This document shows, one piece after another, positions 40,986 to 50,058 of a DNA stretch of 64,000 bases. Below the pieces are notes generated by a model that was given only the letters and a program-made list of their open reading frames with translations, had not been told where the DNA came from and ran no database searches. Position numbers and translations under genes: made by a program. This DNA is from Streptomyces sp. Root1304 (GTDB taxonomy: Bacteria; Actinomycetota; Actinomycetes; Streptomycetales; Streptomycetaceae). The number at the start of each line of letters is the position of its first letter. The stretch's first letter is position 1. Location: NCBI RefSeq assembly GCF_001426405.1, contig NZ_LMEP01000012.1, positions 1,006,707-1,070,706 of the forward strand, given 5' to 3'.

Positions 40986-41837
40986 TCAGGCCGCGCGGGC
41001 GGCGAGGGCCAGGACCCGCCGGGCGCCCTCGACCACCGCCGCGTCGACGAAACGGCCGTCCGGAAGCGCCAGCGCGCCCTGCCCGGTGGCGGCCGCCGCG
41101 ACCACCTCCCGGGCCGCGTCGATCTCGGCCGGGGTGGGCAGATAGGCCCGCTCGATGACCGGGAGCTGGCGGGGGTGGATGGCCGCCCGGCCGAAGAAGC
41201 CCAGGGCCCGGCCCCGGGCGCAGCCGGTGGCCAGCGCGTCCAGGTCGGCGATGTCCGGATGGACCGACTGGGCCGGCGGCGGGAGGGCGGCGGCGCGGGC
41301 CGCCACCACCACCCGCCCGCGCGGCCAGTCGAGGGCCGAGTCCTCCCGTACCCCCAGGTCGACGCGGAGGTCGGCCTCGCCGAGCGCGATGCCGCGCACG
41401 GCCGGATGGGCGGTGGCGATGGCGTACGCGTGCTCCACGGCGAGGGCGTTCTCCAGGAGCGGATAGAGGGGGAGGCCCGGGGCCAGCCGGGCGATCCGGT
41501 GGATGTCAGTGGCGTGTGTCACCTTGGGTACACGGAGACCGTGGAGGCCGGGGAGGGGGGCCAGGGTGGGGATGTCGTGCGGGGTGTGGACGCGGACGTG
41601 GACCGGGACGGGGTGGGAGTCCGCGAGGAGATCCGCCGTGGCGTCCAGGGCGTACGCCTTGCGGTCCGGGGGGACGGCGTCCTCCAGGTCGACGATCACG
41701 ACGTCGGCGCCGGCGGTCAGGGCCTTGGCGACCACACGGGGGCGGTCGCCGGGCGCGTACAACCAGGTGAGAGGGGTGAAGGGCGCCGGGTACCGGGGGA
41801 GTTCCGTGCCGGTCGCGCGGGTCATGGCCCCGCTCAT
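40986..41837 (-). CDS. CitE/HpcH-family CoA-ester lyase-like protein
   Basis: A 283-residue (beta/alpha)8 enzyme of the HpcH/HpaI-CitE superfamily, which cleaves citryl-, malyl- or citramalyl-CoA-type esters with Mg2+. Visible: LYAPGDRPRVVAKAL, the metal-site segment VVIVDLEDAVPP, an Arg/Glu pair in ALGEADLRVDLG, and GFFGRAAIHPRQL near the C-terminus. ATG 41837 overlaps the stop of the CoA transferase gene, and it is the last gene of the ARH/ribokinase operon. The substrate of the lyase and transferase pair cannot be told from sequence. Confidence 0.87.
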   Translation of the reverse strand: MSGAMTRATGTELPRYPAPFTPLTWLYAPGDRPRVVAKALTAGADVVIVDLEDAVPPDRKAYALDATADLLADSHPVPVHVRVHTPHDIPTLAPLPGLHGLRVPKVTHATDIHRIARLAPGLPLYPLLENALAVEHAYAIATAHPAVRGIALGEADLRVDLGVREDSALDWPRGRVVVAARAAALPPPAQSVHPDIADLDALATGCARGRALGFFGRAAIHPRQLPVIERAYLPTPAEIDAAREVVAAAATGQGALALPDGRFVDAAVVEGARRVLALAARAA

Positions 41838-43051
41838 ACCGCCCCCTGGTCGCGGAGGGCGTCGATCTCGGCGGGGCTGAGGCCGAGTTCGGAGAGGACG
41901 GCGGTGGTGTCGGCGCCGTGCGGGCGGCCGGGCCAGCGGATGGCGCCGGGCGTCTCGGAGAGGCGGAAGAGCACGTTCTGCATCTTGATCGGGCCGAGTT
42001 CGGGATCCTGCACCTCGGTGACGGTGCGGAGCGCCCGGTACTGCGGATCGGCCACCACGTCCCGGATGTCGTAGACCGGGGCGATGGCCGCCTCCGCCTT
42101 CTCGAAGGCCGCCATGGCCTCGTCCCGGGTGTGGCGGGCGATCCACGAACCGACCGCCTCGTCCAGGACGTCCGCGTGCTCGGCCCGGCCGGTGCCGTCG
42201 GCGAACCACGGCTCGTCGATCAGTTCCGGGCGGCCGACCAGCCGGAGGACCCGCTCGGCGATCGACTGGGCGGAGGTGGAGACGGCGACCCAGGAGCCGT
42301 CGGCGGTCCGATAGGTGTTGCGCGGGGCGTTGTTGCGGGAGCGGTTGCCCGTCCGGGGCTGGACGTAGCCGAGCTGGTCGTACCAGAGGGAGTGGGGTCC
42401 GATGACGGAGAGCATCGGTTCGATGATCGCCATGTCGACGACCTGGCCGCGGCCGGTCGTGTTCCTGGCGTTGAGCGCGGTCATCACGGCGTACGCGGTC
42501 GCCAGGGCGGCGATCGAGTCGGCCAGGCCGAAGGGGGGAAGGGTGGGCGGGCCCTCGGGTTCGCCGGTGATGGCGGCGAAGCCGCTCATCGCCTCGGCGA
42601 GGGTGCCGAAGCCGGGGCGGTGGGCGTACGGGCCGAACTGGCCGAAGCCGGTGACCCGGGCGAGGACCAGCCGGGGGTTGACGGTGGACAGCTCCTCCCA
42701 GCCCAGACCCCAGCGTTCCAGGGTGCCGGGGCGGAAGTTCTCCACGACGACGTCCACGTCGGCGGCGAGCGCGAGCAGGGTGTCACGGCCGCCCGGCGAG
42801 GACAGATCGAGGGTGATGGTCCGCTTGTTGCGGCCGAGGACCTTCCACCAGAGGCCGACGCCGTCCTTCGCGGGACCGTGGCCGCGGGACGGGTCGGGCT
42901 TGCGGGGGTGCTCGACCTTGACGACGTCGGCGCCGAAGTCCCCGAGCATCATGGCGGCGAGCGGGCCGGCGAAGAGGGTCGCGAGATCCAGGACGCGCAG
43001 GCCCTGGAGCGGAGCCGCGGGGGTGGGCGGCGCGGTGGGTGCGGTGGTCAT
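41834..43051 (-). CDS. Class III (CaiB/BaiF-type) CoA transferase
   Basis: A 405-residue family III CoA transferase that moves CoA between carboxylic acids through a mixed-anhydride/glutamyl path. Signatures: PLQGLRVLDLATLFAGPLAAMMLGD at the N-terminus, DVVKVEHPRKPD, NKRTITLDLSSP, and VDMAIIEPMLSVIG, whose acidic residues include the expected catalytic Asp position. Overlaps both neighbours by 4 bases (ATGA). Together with the following lyase-like gene it suggests activation and cleavage of a C4-C6 dicarboxylate or hydroxy acid; this is inference. Confidence 0.9.
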   Translation of the reverse strand: MTTAPTAPPTPAAPLQGLRVLDLATLFAGPLAAMMLGDFGADVVKVEHPRKPDPSRGHGPAKDGVGLWWKVLGRNKRTITLDLSSPGGRDTLLALAADVDVVVENFRPGTLERWGLGWEELSTVNPRLVLARVTGFGQFGPYAHRPGFGTLAEAMSGFAAITGEPEGPPTLPPFGLADSIAALATAYAVMTALNARNTTGRGQVVDMAIIEPMLSVIGPHSLWYDQLGYVQPRTGNRSRNNAPRNTYRTADGSWVAVSTSAQSIAERVLRLVGRPELIDEPWFADGTGRAEHADVLDEAVGSWIARHTRDEAMAAFEKAEAAIAPVYDIRDVVADPQYRALRTVTEVQDPELGPIKMQNVLFRLSETPGAIRWPGRPHGADTTAVLSELGLSPAEIDALRDQGAV

Positions 43052-43968
43052 ACGGGGTCGGTCTCCCTCGTGCCGAGGGGGCCGAAGGCCGCCTCGATCT
43101 CCGTGCGGAACGGCATCGACGTCGAGGCGCCCTCGCGCTGGACGGAGAGCGCGGCGGCGCTCTGCGCCCAGGCGAGCGCCTCGGGGACGGGGCGGCCCTC
43201 GCCGAGGGCGACCGCGAGCGCGCCGACGAAGGTGTCGCCCGCGCCGGTGGTGTCCACGGCCCGGACCCGGGGGGCGGGCACCGCGACCGGGTCGGCGCCC
43301 CGCGCCGCGTACAGGCTGCCGGCCGCCCCCAGGGTGACGACCACCTCGGGCACGTCCCCGAGCAGGGCGAGGGCGGCCTCGCGCGGGTCGGTGAGGCCGG
43401 TGAGCGCGGCGGCCTCGTGCTCGTTGGGCACCAACAGGTCGGTGGCTGCCAGGAGTTCGGGAGGGAGGGGCTGGGCGGGAGCGGGGGTGAGGACGGTACG
43501 GACGCCGAGGCGGCGGGCGGTCGTGGCGGCCTCCACGACGACGGAGAGCGGCAGTTCCAGCTGGAGGAGCAGGACGTCGGCGGTACCGAGGAGGGCCTCG
43601 TCGCCGTGGGTGAGGGAGGTGACGGTGCCGTTCGCGCCGGGGACGACGACGATCGCGTTGCCGCCCTCGTCGTCGACGACGATGTGGGCCGTGCCGGAGG
43701 CCCCCTCGGAGGTGCGCAGGAGGTCGGTGTCCACCCCGCAGTGTTCGAGCGTGGACCGGAGGCGGGCTCCGAACTCGTCCGCGCCGACCGCTCCGACCAT
43801 CGACACCTCGCCGCCGGCGCGGGCGGCGGCGACGGCCTGGTTGGCGCCCTTGCCGCCGGGGATCGTACGGAAGGAGCGGCCGGTGACGGTCTCGCCGAGG
43901 GCCGGGGCCCTCGGTACGTAGGCGACGAGATCCATGTTCGTACTGCCGAGTACGACGATGCTGGTCAT
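43048..43968 (-). CDS. rbsK: Ribokinase-type PfkB carbohydrate kinase
   Basis: A 306-residue PfkB kinase closest in pattern to ribokinase. It begins MTSIVVLGSTNMDLVAYVPR, has the substrate-side GGKGANQAVAAARAGG, and the catalytic anion-hole motif DTTGAGDTFVGALAV with the base Asp. Ribokinase would phosphorylate ribose to ribose-5-phosphate. Its start overlaps the stop of an ADP-ribosylglycohydrolase-family gene, which gives a chemically sensible link if those enzymes release ribose or ribosides. Other pentose or nucleoside substrates are possible. Confidence 0.88.
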   Translation of the reverse strand: MTSIVVLGSTNMDLVAYVPRAPALGETVTGRSFRTIPGGKGANQAVAAARAGGEVSMVGAVGADEFGARLRSTLEHCGVDTDLLRTSEGASGTAHIVVDDEGGNAIVVVPGANGTVTSLTHGDEALLGTADVLLLQLELPLSVVVEAATTARRLGVRTVLTPAPAQPLPPELLAATDLLVPNEHEAAALTGLTDPREAALALLGDVPEVVVTLGAAGSLYAARGADPVAVPAPRVRAVDTTGAGDTFVGALAVALGEGRPVPEALAWAQSAAALSVQREGASTSMPFRTEIEAAFGPLGTRETDPV

Positions 43969-45371
43969 GGGCGTACGGCCTCCAGACGGGTCAGTTCGGC
44001 CAGGGTGTCGAAGCCGATGCCGTCGAAGGACGGGACCGAGGTCGACAGCCGGTTCTTGAGGGGTGCGGTCCAGTGCTCGGGCAGCCGGTCGGGGTGCCCG
44101 GCGAGCAGCCCGGCGACCGAACCGGCGGTGGCACCGTTGGAATCGGTGTCCCAGCCGCCGGAGACCGCCGCGCAGACGGAGCGGGTGAAGTCGCCGTCGG
44201 CGTGGGTGAGGGCGGCGGCGAGCAGCGCGGCGTTCGGGACGGCATGGACCCAGTGGTACCCGCCGAGTTCGGCGTGCAGCCGGTCGACGACCGGGTCGAA
44301 GCCCGCGCGGTCGCCCGCCGCCTCACGGGCGTACCCGATGCCCCGGCGGACGGCCTCCGCGAGGCGGGAGCGCGGCGGGATCACGGCGAGACCGGCGGCG
44401 AGCGCCCGGTGGACGTCGGCGGTGCCGGTCGCGGCGGTGGCGAGGGTGGCGGCGACGAACATGGCGCCGTAGACGCCGTTCGCGGTGTGGGTGAGCACCG
44501 CGTCCCGGTGCGCCCGCGCGGCGGCGGCCACCGGGTCGCCGGGGTGGGTCCAGCCGTGGACGTCGGCGCGGATCTGGGCGCCGATCCACTCGCGGAAGGG
44601 GTTGCGGTGGACGGCGGTCAGCGGGGGTTCCACGCCGTCGAGGAGGTTGCGGTAGGCGACGCGTTCGGCCGTGAAGGTGCGGCCGGCGGGCAGTTCGTCG
44701 AGCCAGAGGCGGGCGACGTCGGAGGTGGTGAAGCCGCGGCCGTGCCGCTGGAGGAGCAGCAGGTTCAGCAGGGGGTAGTTGAGGTCGTCGTCCTCGGGCA
44801 TGCCGTCGATGTTCTCGGCGAGGGAGGTGGGGGCGGAGCGACGGTTCCAGGGGTGGGCGGCGAGCAGCTCGGGCGGGACGCCACGGGCGGTGAACCAGGT
44901 GGAGAGGGGCCAGTTGCCGGCGGCGCGGGCGAGGGCGCGGATCGCGGCGAGGGGCAGTTTCTCGACGGGCTTGCCGAGCAGGCATCCGGCGGCCCGGCCG
45001 AGCCAGGCGGCGTGGAGCCGGTCGCGGAGTGCGTCCTCCCCTCCCGGCGGGGACGCGGGACGGCCGCCCGTGGAAGGGGTGGTGGCGGTCGTGCCGGGGG
45101 CCGTCAGGGCGCGGATCGCGGGGAGGGAGGTCGGCTCCAGGGCGGCCAGGGGAGTGGGGAGGGAGGCCAGGGCGTCCAGGAGTTCCTCCGCCAGGGGGCG
45201 GAGGTCCGGGCGGGGGGTCCCGGAGGCGCCGGCCGTCTCCGGGGCGGGCGGGCCGCCCGCCGCCGCCCAGCGGGCCGCGAGGGCGCGGGCGTCGCGGCCG
45301 TCCTCCGCGGCCTGGCGGAGCTCGTGCCCCACCAGGTCCTCCGGCTGGACCCAGGTCAGCCGGAGGTTCAC
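43965..45371 (-). CDS. ADP-ribosylglycohydrolase family protein (ARH-D)
   Basis: A 468-residue protein with a roughly 110-residue N-terminal extension rich in Pro/Ala/Thr, then an ADP-ribosylglycohydrolase (DraG/ARH) fold. The metal-binding acidic clusters are intact: MPEDDDLNYPLL with Asp194-196 and WDTDSNGATAG with Asp408 and Asp410. Family members cleave ADP-ribose or related N/O-glycosides using two Mg2+ or Mn2+ ions. GTG 45371 overlaps the upstream stop (GTGA). Fourth of four tandem paralogues; its Asn-containing motif (DLNYP) marks a subfamily distinct from its neighbours. Confidence 0.88.
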   Translation of the reverse strand: MNLRLTWVQPEDLVGHELRQAAEDGRDARALAARWAAAGGPPAPETAGASGTPRPDLRPLAEELLDALASLPTPLAALEPTSLPAIRALTAPGTTATTPSTGGRPASPPGGEDALRDRLHAAWLGRAAGCLLGKPVEKLPLAAIRALARAAGNWPLSTWFTARGVPPELLAAHPWNRRSAPTSLAENIDGMPEDDDLNYPLLNLLLLQRHGRGFTTSDVARLWLDELPAGRTFTAERVAYRNLLDGVEPPLTAVHRNPFREWIGAQIRADVHGWTHPGDPVAAAARAHRDAVLTHTANGVYGAMFVAATLATAATGTADVHRALAAGLAVIPPRSRLAEAVRRGIGYAREAAGDRAGFDPVVDRLHAELGGYHWVHAVPNAALLAAALTHADGDFTRSVCAAVSGGWDTDSNGATAGSVAGLLAGHPDRLPEHWTAPLKNRLSTSVPSFDGIGFDTLAELTRLEAVRP

Positions 45372-46519
45372 CGGGCCGCGCTCGTCAGCGTGGCGAACGC
45401 GGCCTCGTGGGCCCGGCGGCGAGCGGCGTCCTCCGCGAAGACCTCGTGGGTCACCTCGGCCAGCGCCCGGGCCGGGGCGTGCAGATCGAGACGGCTGGCC
45501 TCGGCCACCCGCTTCGCCCAGTCGGCGGGCACCGCGGCCTCGCCGTGCAGCGCGCCCACGATCGCCCCCGCCATCGTCGCGATGGAGTCGCAGTCGCGGC
45601 CGTAGTTGACGGCGCCGAGCACCGTACGCCGGAAGTCGCCCTCGCCGACCAGCAGCATGCCCAGGGCGACCGGCAGTTCCTCGATCGCGTGGAGGCGGGA
45701 GGGGCGGCGGGCGCCGAGGGACGGGGTGCGGTAGTCGGGGCCGACCGAGTCGAAGGGAGCGACGGCCTTGCGGAGCGGGGCGAGGGCCGACTCGAAGTCC
45801 CGGTGCCCGGAGGCCACTTCCGCCACCGCTTCGATCGCCGACCGGGTGCCGTCCTTCGCCAGCGCCAGGGCCGTCGCGACCACCGAGGACGGGGTGGCGC
45901 CCGGCGCGCACGCCGCCGCCACCGCCGCCGCGAACACGCCGGCCGCCTCACGGCCGTACGAGGACTGGTGGGCGCCCGCGATGTCGAGGGCCTCGGCGTA
46001 CGCGGCCTCCGGGTGGGCCGCGTTGACGAGGCCGACGGGTGCCATGTACATCGCGGCGCCGCAGTTCACGATGTTGCCGTTGCCCGCCTCGCGCGGGTCC
46101 GCGTGGGCGTAGTGGAGCCGGGCCACGATCCACTTCTCGGCGAGGAAGATCCGCTGGAGCGGCAGCGCCTCCGCCTCCAGTTCGGGGATCCAGACGGGGG
46201 AGCCCATGAGTTCGGGGACCAGATGGTCCGCGACCGCGTACGCGTCGAGGTGGCCGCGGACCTTCTCGTACACCCTGATCAGGGCGTGGGTCATCAAGGT
46301 GTCGTCGGTGACGTGCCCGTCGCCCTTGTGGTACGGGGCGATGGGGCGGGCCGTGCGCCAGTCGCCGCCGTTCCAGGGGCCGACGATCCCGGTGACGCGG
46401 CCGCCGTGGCGCTCCACGATCTGCTCGGGGGTGTAGCCCTCGACGGGGCCGCCGAGCGCGTCGCCGACGGCGGCCCCGAGGAGACTGCCGGTGATCCGGT
46501 CATCCAGTGTGGGTGTCAT
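45368..46519 (-). CDS. ADP-ribosylglycohydrolase family protein (ARH-C)
   Basis: A 383-residue DraG/ARH-fold protein with no N-terminal extension. It starts MTPTLDDRITGSLLGAAVGDALG, the family-typical first helix, and has both metal motifs: HVTDDTLMTHAL (Asp72, Asp73, Thr74) and NYGRDCDSIATMAG (Asp309, Asp311). It is therefore likely catalytic. An in-frame GTG at 46534 would add five residues; ATG 46519 is chosen because AGGTGG lies upstream, and it overlaps the preceding coding region by 20 bases. Target molecule unknown. Confidence 0.88.
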   Translation of the reverse strand: MTPTLDDRITGSLLGAAVGDALGGPVEGYTPEQIVERHGGRVTGIVGPWNGGDWRTARPIAPYHKGDGHVTDDTLMTHALIRVYEKVRGHLDAYAVADHLVPELMGSPVWIPELEAEALPLQRIFLAEKWIVARLHYAHADPREAGNGNIVNCGAAMYMAPVGLVNAAHPEAAYAEALDIAGAHQSSYGREAAGVFAAAVAAACAPGATPSSVVATALALAKDGTRSAIEAVAEVASGHRDFESALAPLRKAVAPFDSVGPDYRTPSLGARRPSRLHAIEELPVALGMLLVGEGDFRRTVLGAVNYGRDCDSIATMAGAIVGALHGEAAVPADWAKRVAEASRLDLHAPARALAEVTHEVFAEDAARRRAHEAAFATLTSAAR

Positions 46520-48080
46520 GTCGGAATTGTCCACCTGGGGTGGCCGGTTCCGTGGTTGTCAGCAGCCCGGCGAGTTCCACCAGATCCGTCCCCGCGAGCC
46601 GGGGGAGCGCGCAGCCCGCCAGTGTCCGGCAGGCGTCCCGCCAGGTCGTCGGCACCGAACGGCCGCCGCCGAGCGCGCCGGTGAGCGCGCCCGCGAGGGC
46701 GGGGGCGGAGTCGGCGACCCGGGAGAGGCAGACCGCGGCCGGGACGGCGGCGGTCATCTCGCCCCGGGAGGCGGTCGCCAGGGCCAGCGCCACCGGGACG
46801 GTCTCGGCGGCGGCGATGCCGTAGCTGTAGACGTGGTCGACGATCCGGTGCTCCAGGAGCGGCACCAGTTCGAAGGCCGAACCGGCGGTCCGGGCGAGCT
46901 TCACCGCGTACCGGGCGTTGCGGCCGATCTCGGTGACCGGGGGGAGTTCGGCGAGGGCCGCCGCGACGGCCTCGTCGACCGTCGCCCCACCGAGGGCCGC
47001 CGCGACGGCCGCCGCCGTCGCGCGGGCGCCGTGGACGCCGTCGCCGTCCTGGGTGTACCGGGCGTCGAACTCGGCGAGTTCGGCGGCGGCGCGGGGGTCG
47101 CCGGGGTGGACGAGGGCCAGGACGGCGGCCCGGACGCAGGCCGCGTCGTCGAAGTAGTGCGGGTTGTCGTGGCCGGTGGCCGGCGGGCGCAGACCGGTGG
47201 CGAGATTGCCGAGGCCGGCGCGGACGGAGATCCGGGCGCGGAGGGGGAGTACGGCGGACTCGACCTCCGGGGCGCGGTCGGCGGCGGCGGCGACCTGGCT
47301 CGCCAGGGCGTTCCAGGCCAGGTCCACGGCGGCGCGGAGCCGGCGCTCCGGGGGCAGCGTCGCGAACACCGGGCCGGTGGAGGCGAGCACCGCCTCGGCG
47401 GTGAACACCGCCCATTCGGCGTCGTCCGAGGGGCCGAGGCGGAGCGGCTCCGGGGGCTGGTTGAGGGCGATGGGGACGGGGAGGGTGGTCGTGGCGTTCT
47501 GCTCGGCGAAGGTGTCGAGTTCACGGGTGAGCCGGCGGGTCCACTCGGGCATGCGGGCGGCACGGTGGCGGGCGGCGGGCCAGCCGGCGGCGTCGCCTGC
47601 GGCGATCCCGAGGAGCAGGCCTTCGACGGCGTCGCGGGTGGGGCGGAGGGGAGTGACGGGGGGCGGGGGGTTGTGGGTGCGGTGCCATGCGCCGGTGGCG
47701 CGCGGCTGTGAGCCGAAGCCGAGTGGGCCGGGGTCCCGCGGGGCGAGGTCCGTCGGGTCGGCTGCCGGGGCAGGGGGTTCCGCCAGGTCCTGGGGGGTGC
47801 CGAGGAGGGGGCCGCAGCCCGCCGTCGTGGGCTGCGCCCACCCTCCCCCGAGCTCTCGGTTCCGTTCGAGCAGGGGGGAGCTGCCTTCCCCGGCGGGACG
47901 ATGGCCCGCTGCGGTGGAGGTGGTGTCGGTGGTGGCGGCGGTGGTGCCGGTGTCCGGCCCCGTGGCTGTGTCCACGGCGGCGCCGGTGTCCAGCCGCAGG
48001 GCTGTGCCCACCGCGGTGCCGTCCGGTCCCGGGGCTGCGCCCCCGGGGGGCGTCGCCTGCGTCGTCAGGTCCGCGCTCAT
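46500..48080 (-). CDS. Divergent ADP-ribosylglycohydrolase-like protein with degenerate metal motifs (ARH-B)
   Basis: A 526-residue protein. The first roughly 145 residues are low-complexity (Thr/Ala/Pro/Gly) and partly encoded by a palindromic repeat. The rest has the ARH fold beginning AVEGLLLGIAAGDAAGW. The metal motifs are eroded: the usual T-D-D-T appears as PSDDAEW (Asp219, Asp220, no Thr) and the usual R-D-x-D as RVADSA (residues 454-459, one Asp only). It may have lost glycohydrolase activity and act as a binding partner. ATG 48080 overlaps the preceding stop by one base, supporting the long form. Confidence 0.8.
   Translation of the reverse strand: MSADLTTQATPPGGAAPGPDGTAVGTALRLDTGAAVDTATGPDTGTTAATTDTTSTAAGHRPAGEGSSPLLERNRELGGGWAQPTTAGCGPLLGTPQDLAEPPAPAADPTDLAPRDPGPLGFGSQPRATGAWHRTHNPPPPVTPLRPTRDAVEGLLLGIAAGDAAGWPAARHRAARMPEWTRRLTRELDTFAEQNATTTLPVPIALNQPPEPLRLGPSDDAEWAVFTAEAVLASTGPVFATLPPERRLRAAVDLAWNALASQVAAAADRAPEVESAVLPLRARISVRAGLGNLATGLRPPATGHDNPHYFDDAACVRAAVLALVHPGDPRAAAELAEFDARYTQDGDGVHGARATAAAVAAALGGATVDEAVAAALAELPPVTEIGRNARYAVKLARTAGSAFELVPLLEHRIVDHVYSYGIAAAETVPVALALATASRGEMTAAVPAAVCLSRVADSAPALAGALTGALGGGRSVPTTWRDACRTLAGCALPRLAGTDLVELAGLLTTTEPATPGGQFRHDTHTG
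47840..47880. repeat. Streptomyces-type dispersed imperfect palindrome inside a coding region
   Basis: The stretch reads CCTCCCCCGAGCTCTCGG, then a short connector, then GTTCGAGCAGGGGGGAG, a C-rich/G-rich imperfect palindrome. I recall close variants scattered through intergenic regions of many Streptomyces genomes. Here it is translated as residues 67-81 of the ARH-B protein, if the long form is correct. Copy number cannot be checked from this window, which shows one copy. Confidence 0.55.
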
Positions 48081-49075
48081 CAGGACTCCTCCTCCGGGGT
48101 CAGCAGGTCCGCCACGTCCAGGACGTGGTAGCCGCGCATCGACGGGAGGCAGCTGCCCGTCACCGGGGTGATGGCCGAGGCCCAGTCCGCCGGGATCGCG
48201 CCCACGCCGCCCGCCGCGCCGGCCAGCGCGCCCGCCACCGCCGCCGTCGTGTCCGCGTCGCGGCCCATGTTGACGGCCGTCAGGACCGCCGTACGGAAGT
48301 CGCCCCGCGCGGCGGCGAACGCGCCGAAGGCCAGGCCCACCGCCTCCGGGGCCAGGTCCGTCCAGGGGTAGCCGCCGATGACGACCGCCGAGCGGACCTG
48401 GCGTTCGCGGGTGAGCGGGTCCGGCTGGACGCGCTGCGCCGCGACGACCGCGCGGCGCAGCGAGCGGGCCGTCCAGGAGTCCATCGGGACGACCGAGAGC
48501 GCCGCCGCGATGACCGAGGTGACGCTCGCTCCCGTCATCGCCGCCGCCACGCCCGCCGCCACCGCCTGGCCGCCGTAGATGCCCTCGCCGTCGTGGCTGA
48601 CGCTGCCGTCGATGGCGACGAGCCGGGCCGCCTCCGCCGGGCGCCCCGCCGCGAACACCCCGAACGGCGCCGCGCGCATCGCGAGACCGTCGCTCCAGGC
48701 GTGCCGGTGCTGGGCGGAGATGGGGGCGGCGAGGCCCCTGCGGAGGTTCTCCAGCGTGCCGCGCTCCGAGAAGCCCGCACCCCGGAAGGGCCCCTCGTCG
48801 AGGTCGGCGATCCAGTGGTGCCAGGCCCGTTCGACGTGGTGGACGGTGAGGGCCGAGCCGTGCCGGGCGAGGAGGAGCGCCGAGAAGATGGCGTACTCGG
48901 TGTCGTCGGTGCCCGCGGGGCTCTCCGTCACGAAGCCCTCGATCCGGCCCCAGCGGCGGCGGATCTCGGAGGGCCGCATGTTCTCGGCGGGCGCGCCGAG
49001 CGCGTCGCCGACGGCGAGGCCGAGCAGCGCCCCTCTCGCCCGTTCGCGCGTGTCGCGTGCCGTGGTGGTCACCAT
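48080..49075 (-). CDS. ADP-ribosylglycohydrolase family protein (ARH-A)
   Basis: A 331-residue DraG/ARH protein, first gene of the seven-gene operon. Metal motifs are canonical: SPAGTDDTEYAIFS (Thr56, Asp57, Asp58, Thr59) and NMGRDADTTAAVAG (Asp273, Asp275). It begins MVTTTARDTRERARGALLGLAVGDALG. ATG 49075 has GAGGAAGGGG about 10 bases upstream and is preferred over an in-frame codon at 49141. It lies divergent from the VIT-type transporter with 254 bp between. Substrate unknown; removal of ADP-ribose from protein, nucleic acid or a metabolite is possible. Confidence 0.9.
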   Translation of the reverse strand: MVTTTARDTRERARGALLGLAVGDALGAPAENMRPSEIRRRWGRIEGFVTESPAGTDDTEYAIFSALLLARHGSALTVHHVERAWHHWIADLDEGPFRGAGFSERGTLENLRRGLAAPISAQHRHAWSDGLAMRAAPFGVFAAGRPAEAARLVAIDGSVSHDGEGIYGGQAVAAGVAAAMTGASVTSVIAAALSVVPMDSWTARSLRRAVVAAQRVQPDPLTRERQVRSAVVIGGYPWTDLAPEAVGLAFGAFAAARGDFRTAVLTAVNMGRDADTTAAVAGALAGAAGGVGAIPADWASAITPVTGSCLPSMRGYHVLDVADLLTPEEES

Positions 49076-49197
49076 GTCCGTGGCCCCTTCCTCGGTGGGG
49101 GCGCGTCGATGGCGCCCCGATGCCTGGATCTGTGCCACCACGCGCGGCGAACTCGCCGAAGAAACGTCTCTGTCACCCGCCTGACACCCCGCCAGGT

Positions 49198-49230
49198 TGC
49201 GGTGCCCTCAGTGAGGCGGGCCTTAGTAAG
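49198..49230 (+). promoter_or_regulatory. Candidate promoter region of the VIT-type transporter
   Basis: TTGCGG at 49198 and the 9-bp palindrome CTTAGTAAG at 49222-49230 lie about 18 bp apart in the 254-bp divergent region. The palindrome covers the -10 position and might be an operator. It does not match an iron-box consensus well. Confidence 0.25.
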
Positions 49231-49329
49231 TACGGCCTGCCTTGCTGGCGCGCCCCTTACATCGCGCGTACTTTCGAGGGTGTTGGGGGCGGCGGGTGCG
49301 ACCCGGCCCGCCGGAACGAGGGGAGAGCC

Positions 49330-50058
49330 ATGTCCATCATCGAAGCTCAGGCGCCACTGCACGAGGCCCACCGCGACAACCACACCCACCGTGACGTCAA
49401 CGGCGGTTGGCTGCGTCCGGCGGTCTTCGGCGCGATGGACGGACTCGTCTCCAACCTCGCCCTGATGACCGGTGTCGCCGGTGGCGCGGTCACCTCGCAG
49501 ACCGTCGTCATCACCGGCCTCGCCGGACTCGCGGCCGGCGCCTTCTCGATGGCGGCCGGCGAGTACACCTCCGTCGCCTCGCAGCGTGAACTCGTCCAGG
49601 CGGAACTGGACGTCGAGCGCCGTCAGTTGCGCAAGCACCCCGTCGACGAGATGGAGGAGCTCGCCGCCCTCTACGTCTCCCGGGGCGTCGAGCCCGCGCT
49701 CGCCCGCGAGGTCGCGATGCAGCTGTCGAAGGACCCCGAGCAGGCCCTGGAGATCCACGCGCGCGAGGAACTGGGCATCGACCCGGACGACCTGCCGTCG
49801 CCCACGGTCGCCGCGGTCTCGTCCTTCGGCTCCTTCGCGCTCGGCGCCCTGCTGCCCGTACTGCCGTACCTGCTCGGCGCGACCGCGCTCTGGCCCGCCG
49901 TGCTGCTCGCCCTCGTCGGGCTTTTCGCCTGCGGCGCGCTGGTGGCCCGGGTGACCGCGCGCGGCTGGCTCTTCAGCGGCATGCGCCAGCTGGTCCTCGG
50001 CGGGGCCGCCGCCGCCGTCACGTACGGCCTCGGCATGCTCTTCGGAGCGGCGCTGTAA
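49330..50058 (+). CDS. VIT1/CCC1-family membrane transporter
   Basis: A 242-residue protein of the VIT1/CCC1 family, which moves Fe2+ or Mn2+ across membranes. Typical features: LRPAVFGAMDGLVSNLALMTG as the first helix, then GLAAGAFSMAAGEYTSVASQREL, a Glu-rich cytoplasmic helix region (residues 85-150) equivalent to the metal-binding domain, and three C-terminal hydrophobic segments. ATG 49330 follows GAGGGGAGAG. A hairpin terminator lies at 50194-50218. Iron or manganese homeostasis is the likely role. Confidence 0.9.
   Translation: MSIIEAQAPLHEAHRDNHTHRDVNGGWLRPAVFGAMDGLVSNLALMTGVAGGAVTSQTVVITGLAGLAAGAFSMAAGEYTSVASQRELVQAELDVERRQLRKHPVDEMEELAALYVSRGVEPALAREVAMQLSKDPEQALEIHAREELGIDPDDLPSPTVAAVSSFGSFALGALLPVLPYLLGATALWPAVLLALVGLFACGALVARVTARGWLFSGMRQLVLGGAAAAVTYGLGMLFGAAL

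Follow-up and report, generated by a model that had tools for sequence, protein, structure and literature searches.

An operon with four ADP-ribosylglycohydrolase-fold genes in Streptomyces sp. Root1304 as the candidate enzyme half of a glycoside uptake and catabolism system

The overlapping operon and its relatives

Seven complete open reading frames (ORFs) lie on the minus strand of a 64,000-nucleotide stretch of the Streptomyces sp. Root1304 genome (contig NZ_LMEP01000012.1; the whole stretch is named here the window), from position 49075 down to 40986. They code four proteins of the ADP-ribosylglycohydrolase (ARH) fold (ARH1 to ARH4), a ribokinase (RbsK), a class III coenzyme A (CoA) transferase (CoAT) and a CitE-like CoA-ester lyase (CitE; Table 1). 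The operon is probably the enzyme half of a system for uptake and catabolism of a glycoside that combines a ribose-like sugar and a carboxylic acid. This reading builds on features established by comparison with related genomes: gene content and order, a LacI operator, co-occurrence with a transporter, the partial loss of the metal site in ARH2 and the separate clades of the four ARHs.

The initial annotation described the seven genes as overlapping and this is the case at 6/6 junctions. The overlap amounts to one base between ARH1 and ARH2 (TGATG at 48080), four bases between ARH3 and ARH4 (GTG at 45371) and four bases (ATGA) at each of the ARH4/RbsK, RbsK/CoAT and CoAT/CitE junctions. ARH2 and ARH3 share 20 bases if the ATG at 46519 is used, or 35 with the GTG at 46534. 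The organization is conserved, most junctions overlapping also in related loci, where the median gap is −4 for all six pairs. Overlaps were counted at 74/111 ARH3/ARH4, 62/77 ARH4/RbsK, 22/28 RbsK/CoAT and 78/97 CoAT/CitE junctions; the starts in those loci were set by a simple gene caller, and the figures for ARH1/ARH2 (27/49) and ARH2/ARH3 (23/43) are the least certain. Every operon gene that could be compared has a dN/dS between 0.09 and 0.42 (six relatives, for two of which only the ARHs were compared), a range read as purifying selection on the operon genes.

Table 1. Features of the operon region (positions in the window; aa, amino acids).
Feature	Position	Strand	Remarks
ARH1, ADP-ribosylglycohydrolase-fold	48080..49075	-	331 aa; motifs GDALGAPAE / GTDDTEY / GRDADTT; PF03747
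ARH2, ADP-ribosylglycohydrolase-fold	46500..48080	-	526 aa, N-terminal extension; degenerate motifs GDAAGWPAA, SDDAE, RVADS
ARH3, ADP-ribosylglycohydrolase-fold	45368..46519	-	383 aa; alternative GTG start 46534; module core member
ARH4, ADP-ribosylglycohydrolase-fold	43965..45371	-	468 aa; motifs PEDDDLNYP / WDTDS; module core member
Ribokinase (RbsK, PfkB family)	43048..43968	-	Pfam; TIGR02152 over cut-off
Class III (CaiB/BaiF-type) CoA transferase (CoAT)	41834..43051	-	Pfam CoA_transf_3
CitE/HpcH-type CoA-ester lyase (CitE)	40986..41837	-	Pfam HpcH_HpaI
Divergent promoter region, operon and VIT1-like gene (49330-50058, +)	49076..49329	.	best LacI-operator site 5 mismatches

Conserved linkage of these genes extends well beyond Streptomyces. 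A scan with an ARH3 alignment led by Microbacterium sequences gave 80 loci of the Actinomycetes (designated by L numbers), a non-random sample formed by the best 80 of 570 confirmed stretches. The main counts refer to the 69 loci that are at least 17 kb long, which carry 34 genus labels and contain ARH3 by construction. Genes are ordered LacI, two CUT1 permeases, a binding protein (SBP), the ARH1-ARH2 pair when present, ARH3, ARH4, then RbsK and a glycoside hydrolase (GH)-like/FGE-like protein when present, CoAT and CitE. ARH4, CoAT and CitE are each found in 69/69 loci, the GH-like/FGE-like protein in 54/69, RbsK in 51/69 and the ARH1-ARH2 pair in 15/69. The LacI/CUT1 operon, comprising LacI, the permeases PermF and PermG and the SBP together with the enzymes, is complete in 63/69. 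The six loci without LacI and transporter belong to Streptomycetaceae and have gltB and lgt as neighbours, as in the window. The SBP is of the oligosaccharide type; its best solved match, at low similarity, is an arabino-oligosaccharide-binding protein.

The CoA transferase and the lyase had been regarded as a branch with no evident connection to the other genes. Their presence in all long ARH3-fetched loci and on some plasmids of rhizobia, where they again accompany an ARH3 homologue, speaks against that view, although L069, L072 and L218, which lack both genes, set a limit to this correction. In a second set of 20 non-Streptomyces loci picked by their match to ARH2, 16 of which are at least 17 kb long, CoAT is found in 13/16 and CitE in 12/16 long loci. 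The idea of an invariable CoA pair was rejected on the basis of L069, L072, L076, L071 and L218 (both genes missing) and of L067 (CitE). Genomes lacking the pair at the locus may process the acid with enzymes encoded at other sites, or may not process it.

Several of these loci have a composition worth recording. L069 and L072 hold LacI, the transporter and all four ARHs with no CoAT or CitE beside them; L218, from Nonomuraea, has the same composition plus RbsK. In L076 and the shorter L077 the ARH1-ARH2 pair stands alone, with a different sugar ABC set and LacI, and with no ARH3, ARH4 or CoA pair. In a genome of 1.3 Mb, L078 (2153-12329) keeps an esterase, LacI, the transporter, ARH3, ARH1, ARH2, CoAT and CitE; ARH4 and ribokinase were not found in that stretch. 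Two further families, an ABC-type ATPase and one other, recur, as judged by eye, near the loci in 3-4 genera and neither was counted in the system. The record of L124/L125, titled Sphaerisporangium cinnabarinum, has the gene layout of Cellulosimicrobium and a 98% identical esterase, and its title may be wrong. L192, a contig binned as Bifidobacterium breve that carries the LacI-transporter-ARH3-ARH4 part, may be mis-binned.

Operator, transporter and distribution

The palindrome TGKAAACGTTTMCA was found with at most two mismatches in the 250 bases before LacI in 61/61 upstream regions: it is exact in 37, has one mismatch in 22 and two mismatches in 2. Upstream of unclassified genes it occurs under the same tolerance in 9/487 cases, 8 of the 9 being divergent neighbours of LacI. 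L078 has a single TGKAAACGTTTMCA-like site with four mismatches, and the four rhizobial LacI genes tested carry TGGTAACGTTCCCA.

The window's genome encodes its transporter apart from the operon, on contig C6; no LacI/CUT1 set adjoins the operon. Compared with the linked Streptomyces locus L098, identity is 59% for the binding protein and 67% and 77% for the permeases. Within the 197 genomes of the order, ARH2 and this SBP are found together in 109 and are both missing in 51, while 27 have ARH2 only and 10 the SBP only. At least 5 of the 119 SBP-matching genomes carry a copy of near 60% identity beside ARH2. The ARH2 query itself matched 146/197 genomes at E ≤ 1e-10. These comprise 136 orthologues by the cut applied and 10 ARH1 cross-matches or small fragments (G074, G182).

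Nineteen of the 20 Streptomyces loci inspected sit between lgt and gltB; the exception is L098, where LacI and the transporter are placed beside the enzymes. ARH2 and CitE are present in all 20, ARH1 in 19 and CoAT in 19, with a piece of it in the last. The surroundings are the same in the window: lgt flanks the operon at one end, while a VIT1-like gene and gltB flank it at the other (names assigned by reading). The VIT1-like membrane protein gene (49330-50058), which diverges from the operon, is present in 19/20 Streptomyces loci, and no connection of this gene to the pathway was seen.

Twelve of 21 plasmid records with ARH3 were read, 11 alphaproteobacterial and one from Nonomuraea. On megaplasmids of Hyphomicrobiales, LacI is followed by two permeases, a binding protein, an ARH3 homologue (43% to the window's ARH3), a second ARH of 699 aa that carries an additional C-terminal region (24% like ARH4) and UgpC. 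The transporter proteins are only 22-28%, and LacI 32%, alike. Given these values and that of the second ARH, a large part of the enzyme set recurs with a transporter that is only distantly related. CoAT (45%) and CitE (34% to the lyase of L079) are present in the Ensifer/Sinorhizobium loci L209, L212, L215, L216 and L217; L213 has CoAT, and CitE was not detected there at threshold. The fetched stretches of L205 (Phyllobacterium), L206 (Agrobacterium), L207 (Nitratireductor), L208 (Pseudochrobactrum) and L214 have neither gene; L206 adds a ribokinase (46%) and L208 is also devoid of the second ARH.

Functional assignment of the encoded proteins and proposed pathway

All four ARHs belong to PF03747 (gathering threshold 26.2 bits), with scores of 207.5 for ARH1, 122.1 for ARH2, 181.3 for ARH3 and 162.0 for ARH4; the ARH proteins do not reach the equivalog cut-offs of TIGR02662 and NF041672. 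In ARH/DraG hydrolases a catalytic Glu and the acidic TDDT-like and DxD[ST] motifs of the metal site are the characteristic elements. The initial annotation noted that the active-site motifs differ among the four proteins, which is accurate. ARH1, ARH3 and ARH4 of the window retain the three elements, and the acidic motifs are kept in aligned relatives with the exception of rows shortened by the gene caller and of the L099 ARH4 (PEGDD). ARH2 has lost the first Asp of the C-terminal DxD in 36/36 aligned rows and in L078; the Glu and Thr motif positions are altered as well in the window protein, and the middle motif is lost in L079. The model of ARH2 (residues 141-526, pLDDT 79.1) displays an ARH fold that matches ARH3 structures, as for Latimeria ARH3 (VIA Z 27.8, root-mean-square deviation (rmsd) 3.1, 285 aligned). 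ARH2 looks like a catalytically dead pseudo-enzyme. Since its sequence is conserved and its gene adjoins ARH1 in the loci read, it is probably the pseudo-enzyme partner of ARH1. In L076 and L077, ARH2 retains TDDT and the Glu, and QTDS or QSDS replaces DxDS, as if it were half-way to a pseudo-enzyme.

A 60-row tree places ARH1, ARH2, ARH3 and ARH4 in four distinct clades that extend across families; its branches are long and the deep joins unsure. The four ARHs are, by this comparison, old and separate clades, and the possibility of a recent tandem duplication was rejected on the same ground. Eight PF03747 matches were counted in the window's genome, four of them within the operon. Two ARH paralogues have other settings. 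The one in L106 (6471-9258; G000 contig C22), 47% identical to ARH4, is found by eye close behind a BCCT-like transporter of the betaine/carnitine type, with a glycerate-kinase-like gene nearby, and is possibly tied to small-molecule uptake. The one in L107 (5836-10846; G000 contig C8) is accompanied, by eye, by PnuC-like, NadR-like and Nudix proteins and two nucleotidyltransferases, a setting that resembles NAD salvage and is unlike that of the window's operon.

Membership of PF03747, together with the fact that DraG is the solved structure nearest to ARH1, could mean that the four ARHs reverse ADP-ribosylation of proteins, DNA, RNA or small molecules, the kinase recycling ribose and the CoA genes being incidental. 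SCO2028 to SCO2031 of S. coelicolor are presumably orthologues of the window's four ARHs, judging by synteny. Their tags are consecutive in the S. coelicolor list of PMC9411070. Two papers count the DraG/ARH homologues of this species as putative ADP-ribose hydrolases, seven in PMC5087735 and eight, with SCO2031, in PMC9411070, and take their number to indicate an active ADP-ribosylation metabolism. The latter number equals the PF03747 total of the window's genome. On the other hand, according to PMC13036486, uracil-ADP-ribose is not cleaved by SCO2028 or SCO2030, a result that may not extend to other linkages. A sugar transporter and LacI accompany the genes in relatives, and inspection by eye of the families recurring in at least three genera near the ARH loci revealed no transferase or macrodomain. 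A role in reversal of ADP-ribosylation is, all in all, very unlikely.

The GH-like protein of relatives was modelled for L131 (pLDDT 84.9). In the model a GH13-like barrel (2wc7, VIA Z 19.1, rmsd 3.6, 300 aligned) is followed by an FGE/EgtB-like C-terminus; for the only two proteins scanned, those of L061 and L181, no Pfam GH family was matched at E 0.001. Among the 69 long loci, 54 have the GH-FGE protein only, 15 the ARH1-ARH2 pair only, none has both and none has neither. Both occur together in seven ARH2-matched loci (L061, L062, L063, L065, L066, L067 and L075), which led to rejection of a strict exclusion; what remains is a strong tendency. L064 and L068, of the same family as those seven, have the pair and no GH-FGE protein. 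An esterase related to PF00756 is present in 18/69 long loci, including a weak match in L199. The GH-like/FGE protein and the PF00756 esterase are naturally fused in L181 (13445-16216), and L078 has another PF00756 esterase, before LacI.

The assignment of the kinase as a ribokinase, made initially from the sequence alone, is sustained by TIGR02152 (314.8 bits, cut-off 299.65) and by its best solved relatives, which are named ribokinase and with which its conserved blocks align. These data argue against a sugar other than ribose, by which the ARHs would act on another furanoside or on a cyclitol with a cis-diol and the enzyme would be a generic PfkB kinase. In favour of such a sugar are the second ribokinase model, NF008353, which is not reached (266.8 bits, cut-off 341), the 18/69 loci without RbsK and the resemblance of the GH-like protein to alpha-glycosidases that act on hexoses. 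We consider this alternative unlikely.

CoAT matches PF02515 (419.1 bits) and reaches no specific equivalog cut-off, the nearest models, of the succinate/glutarate and formyl types, scoring far below theirs. The lyase belongs to the broad family PF03328; its best lyase model is RipC/Ccl (NF038242; 121.1 bits, cut-off 375), and TIGR01588 is not reached either (96.4 bits, cut-off 443.4). CoATs 62-64% identical to that of the window are encoded with CitE-like lyases and MmgE/PrpD-type genes in L210 and L211, from Burkholderia and Rhodococcus, in stretches without ARHs; MmgE/PrpD was annotated in Rhodococcus and read by eye in Burkholderia. This neighbourhood hints at a small dicarboxylate. The Rhodococcus CoAT (62%) adjoins a dihydroorotase-family protein, an amidase, a cyclase-family protein and a CoA ester lyase, by annotation a setting of heterocycle breakdown. 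It brings to mind salvage of an imported nucleoside-like N-riboside, in which the ARHs would be nucleosidases, the ribokinase, which passes a curated cut-off, would take the ribose and the CoA pair would degrade the ring-opened base. Three observations oppose it: reading of the ARH loci by eye revealed no recurrent ring-opening enzyme, deaminase or phosphorylase; the binding protein is an oligosaccharide-type one; and 54/69 loci have an alpha-glycosidase-like protein. N-riboside salvage is consequently quite improbable.

The glycoside pathway that we favour would start with import of the compound by the CUT1-type ABC transporter, encoded in the same LacI-controlled operon in most relatives read. 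ARH3 and ARH4 would hydrolyse glycosidic bonds inside the cell, aided by ARH1 with its putative pseudo-enzyme partner ARH2 or by the putative GH13-like alpha-glycosidase with its FGE-like domain (by both in a few loci). The ribokinase would phosphorylate the freed sugar. In some species the adjacent esterase would free the acid, to be activated by the CoA transferase and then cleaved by the CitE-like lyase, which would yield either an oxo-acid or an aldehyde besides acetyl-CoA or one of its homologues. ARHs of known activity use alpha-ribosides as substrates and GH13-like enzymes use alpha-glycosides, which makes alpha linkages likely. A split into sugar and acid is proposed because the kinase, the CoA transferase and the lyase are the only recurring non-hydrolytic enzymes, and a beta-hydroxyl on the acid because no recurring hydratase was seen at the ARH loci. 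The compounds considered as candidates, namely malate, citramalate, HMG, bacillithiol, arabinan and alpha-ribazole, were left aside.

The different parts of this proposal deserve different confidence. A role in uptake and catabolism is likely, and ARH catalysis on a glycoside is our inference. Passage of a beta-hydroxy acid through the CoA transferase and CitE is slightly favoured, and for the release of ribose the chances are even. Equally balanced is the broader proposition that two to four ARH-fold members, one of them a conserved pseudo-enzyme, replace ordinary glycoside hydrolases in the LacI-controlled catabolism, in two phyla, of an environmental nutrient built from a ribose-like sugar and a hydroxy-acid, the GH-like/FGE protein usually substituting for ARH1-ARH2 where this pair is absent.

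A number of observations weigh against the proposed pathway. In the window the TGKAAACGTTTMCA operator was not found upstream of the operon, the best site having five mismatches, and no LacI orthologue was found in the window's genome, where the best match, at 37%, is close to the other LacI paralogues; with the operator lost and no LacI orthologue found, the set may have another role in this strain. The co-occurrence of ARH2 and SBP (Fisher p=2e-17) was calculated with kinship of the genomes ignored. Among the 69 long loci, 18 have no ribokinase, and in 51 no esterase was found. CoAT and CitE are both missing in L069, L072 and L076, in the 13.7-kb L071 and in Nonomuraea L218; CitE was not seen in L067. 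Of the 11 alphaproteobacterial plasmid loci five have CoAT and CitE, one has CoAT only and five have neither. Two Streptomyces copies are reduced: L099 has no ARH1 and only pieces of ARH3 and CoAT, and L095 has a weak ARH4 match only and no RbsK. The module is sporadic, the ARH2 query matching 14/137 genera in the class sample, and in the phylum sample an ARH3 profile (E ≤ 1e-60) recovered only the window's own genus (10/396 genomes).

A pathway for a ribosylated or glycosylated compound, as conceived initially, is still the best reading, and it came through the checks of linkage, overlap and kinase assignment that sequences permit. Not recognised in the initial annotation were the dead-looking ARH2, the separate ARH clades and the elements that relatives add, namely a transporter, a regulator with its operator, a GH-like protein and an esterase. 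The operon was not described as a pathway among the matches listed in our literature search, whose scope did not extend to subscription journals and preprints. If the four clustered ARHs are catabolic glycosidases, the count of ADP-ribose hydrolases in S. coelicolor halves and part of PF03747 may have been interpreted in the wrong context. Rhizobia, a genome of 1.3 Mb and many Actinomycetes share this conserved putative pathway, which includes transporter, regulator and operator and points to a widespread nutrient; the binding protein and the LacI operator offer two direct routes to its identity.

Comparison with known systems

The operon ARHs share the fold and PF03747 with the ADP-ribosylhydrolases DraG, ARH1 and ARH3, and the acidic motifs are kept in ARH1, ARH3 and ARH4 of the operon. 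They differ in that ARH2 lacks part of the metal site, in that no curated equivalog cut-off is reached and in the LacI/ABC-transporter operon in which they are found in relatives. A parallel in layout is provided by LacI-controlled CUT1 operons of the arabino-oligosaccharide type, with LacI, two permeases, an extracellular binding protein, intracellular hydrolases, a kinase and a palindromic operator with a central CG; here, in contrast, the hydrolases have the ARH fold, and a CoA transferase and a C-C lyase complete the path. The itaconate/citramalate branch (Ict/RipA, RipB, RipC/Ccl) likewise has a CitE-like lyase acting after a class III CoA transferase, and RipC is the best lyase model, but no recurring hydratase is seen at our loci and the RipC score is 121 versus a cut-off of 375. 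Finally, yegTUVW of E. coli also groups an ARH-family protein with a PfkB-type kinase and a transporter, and differs by having one ARH, a nucleoside-type transporter and no CoA genes.

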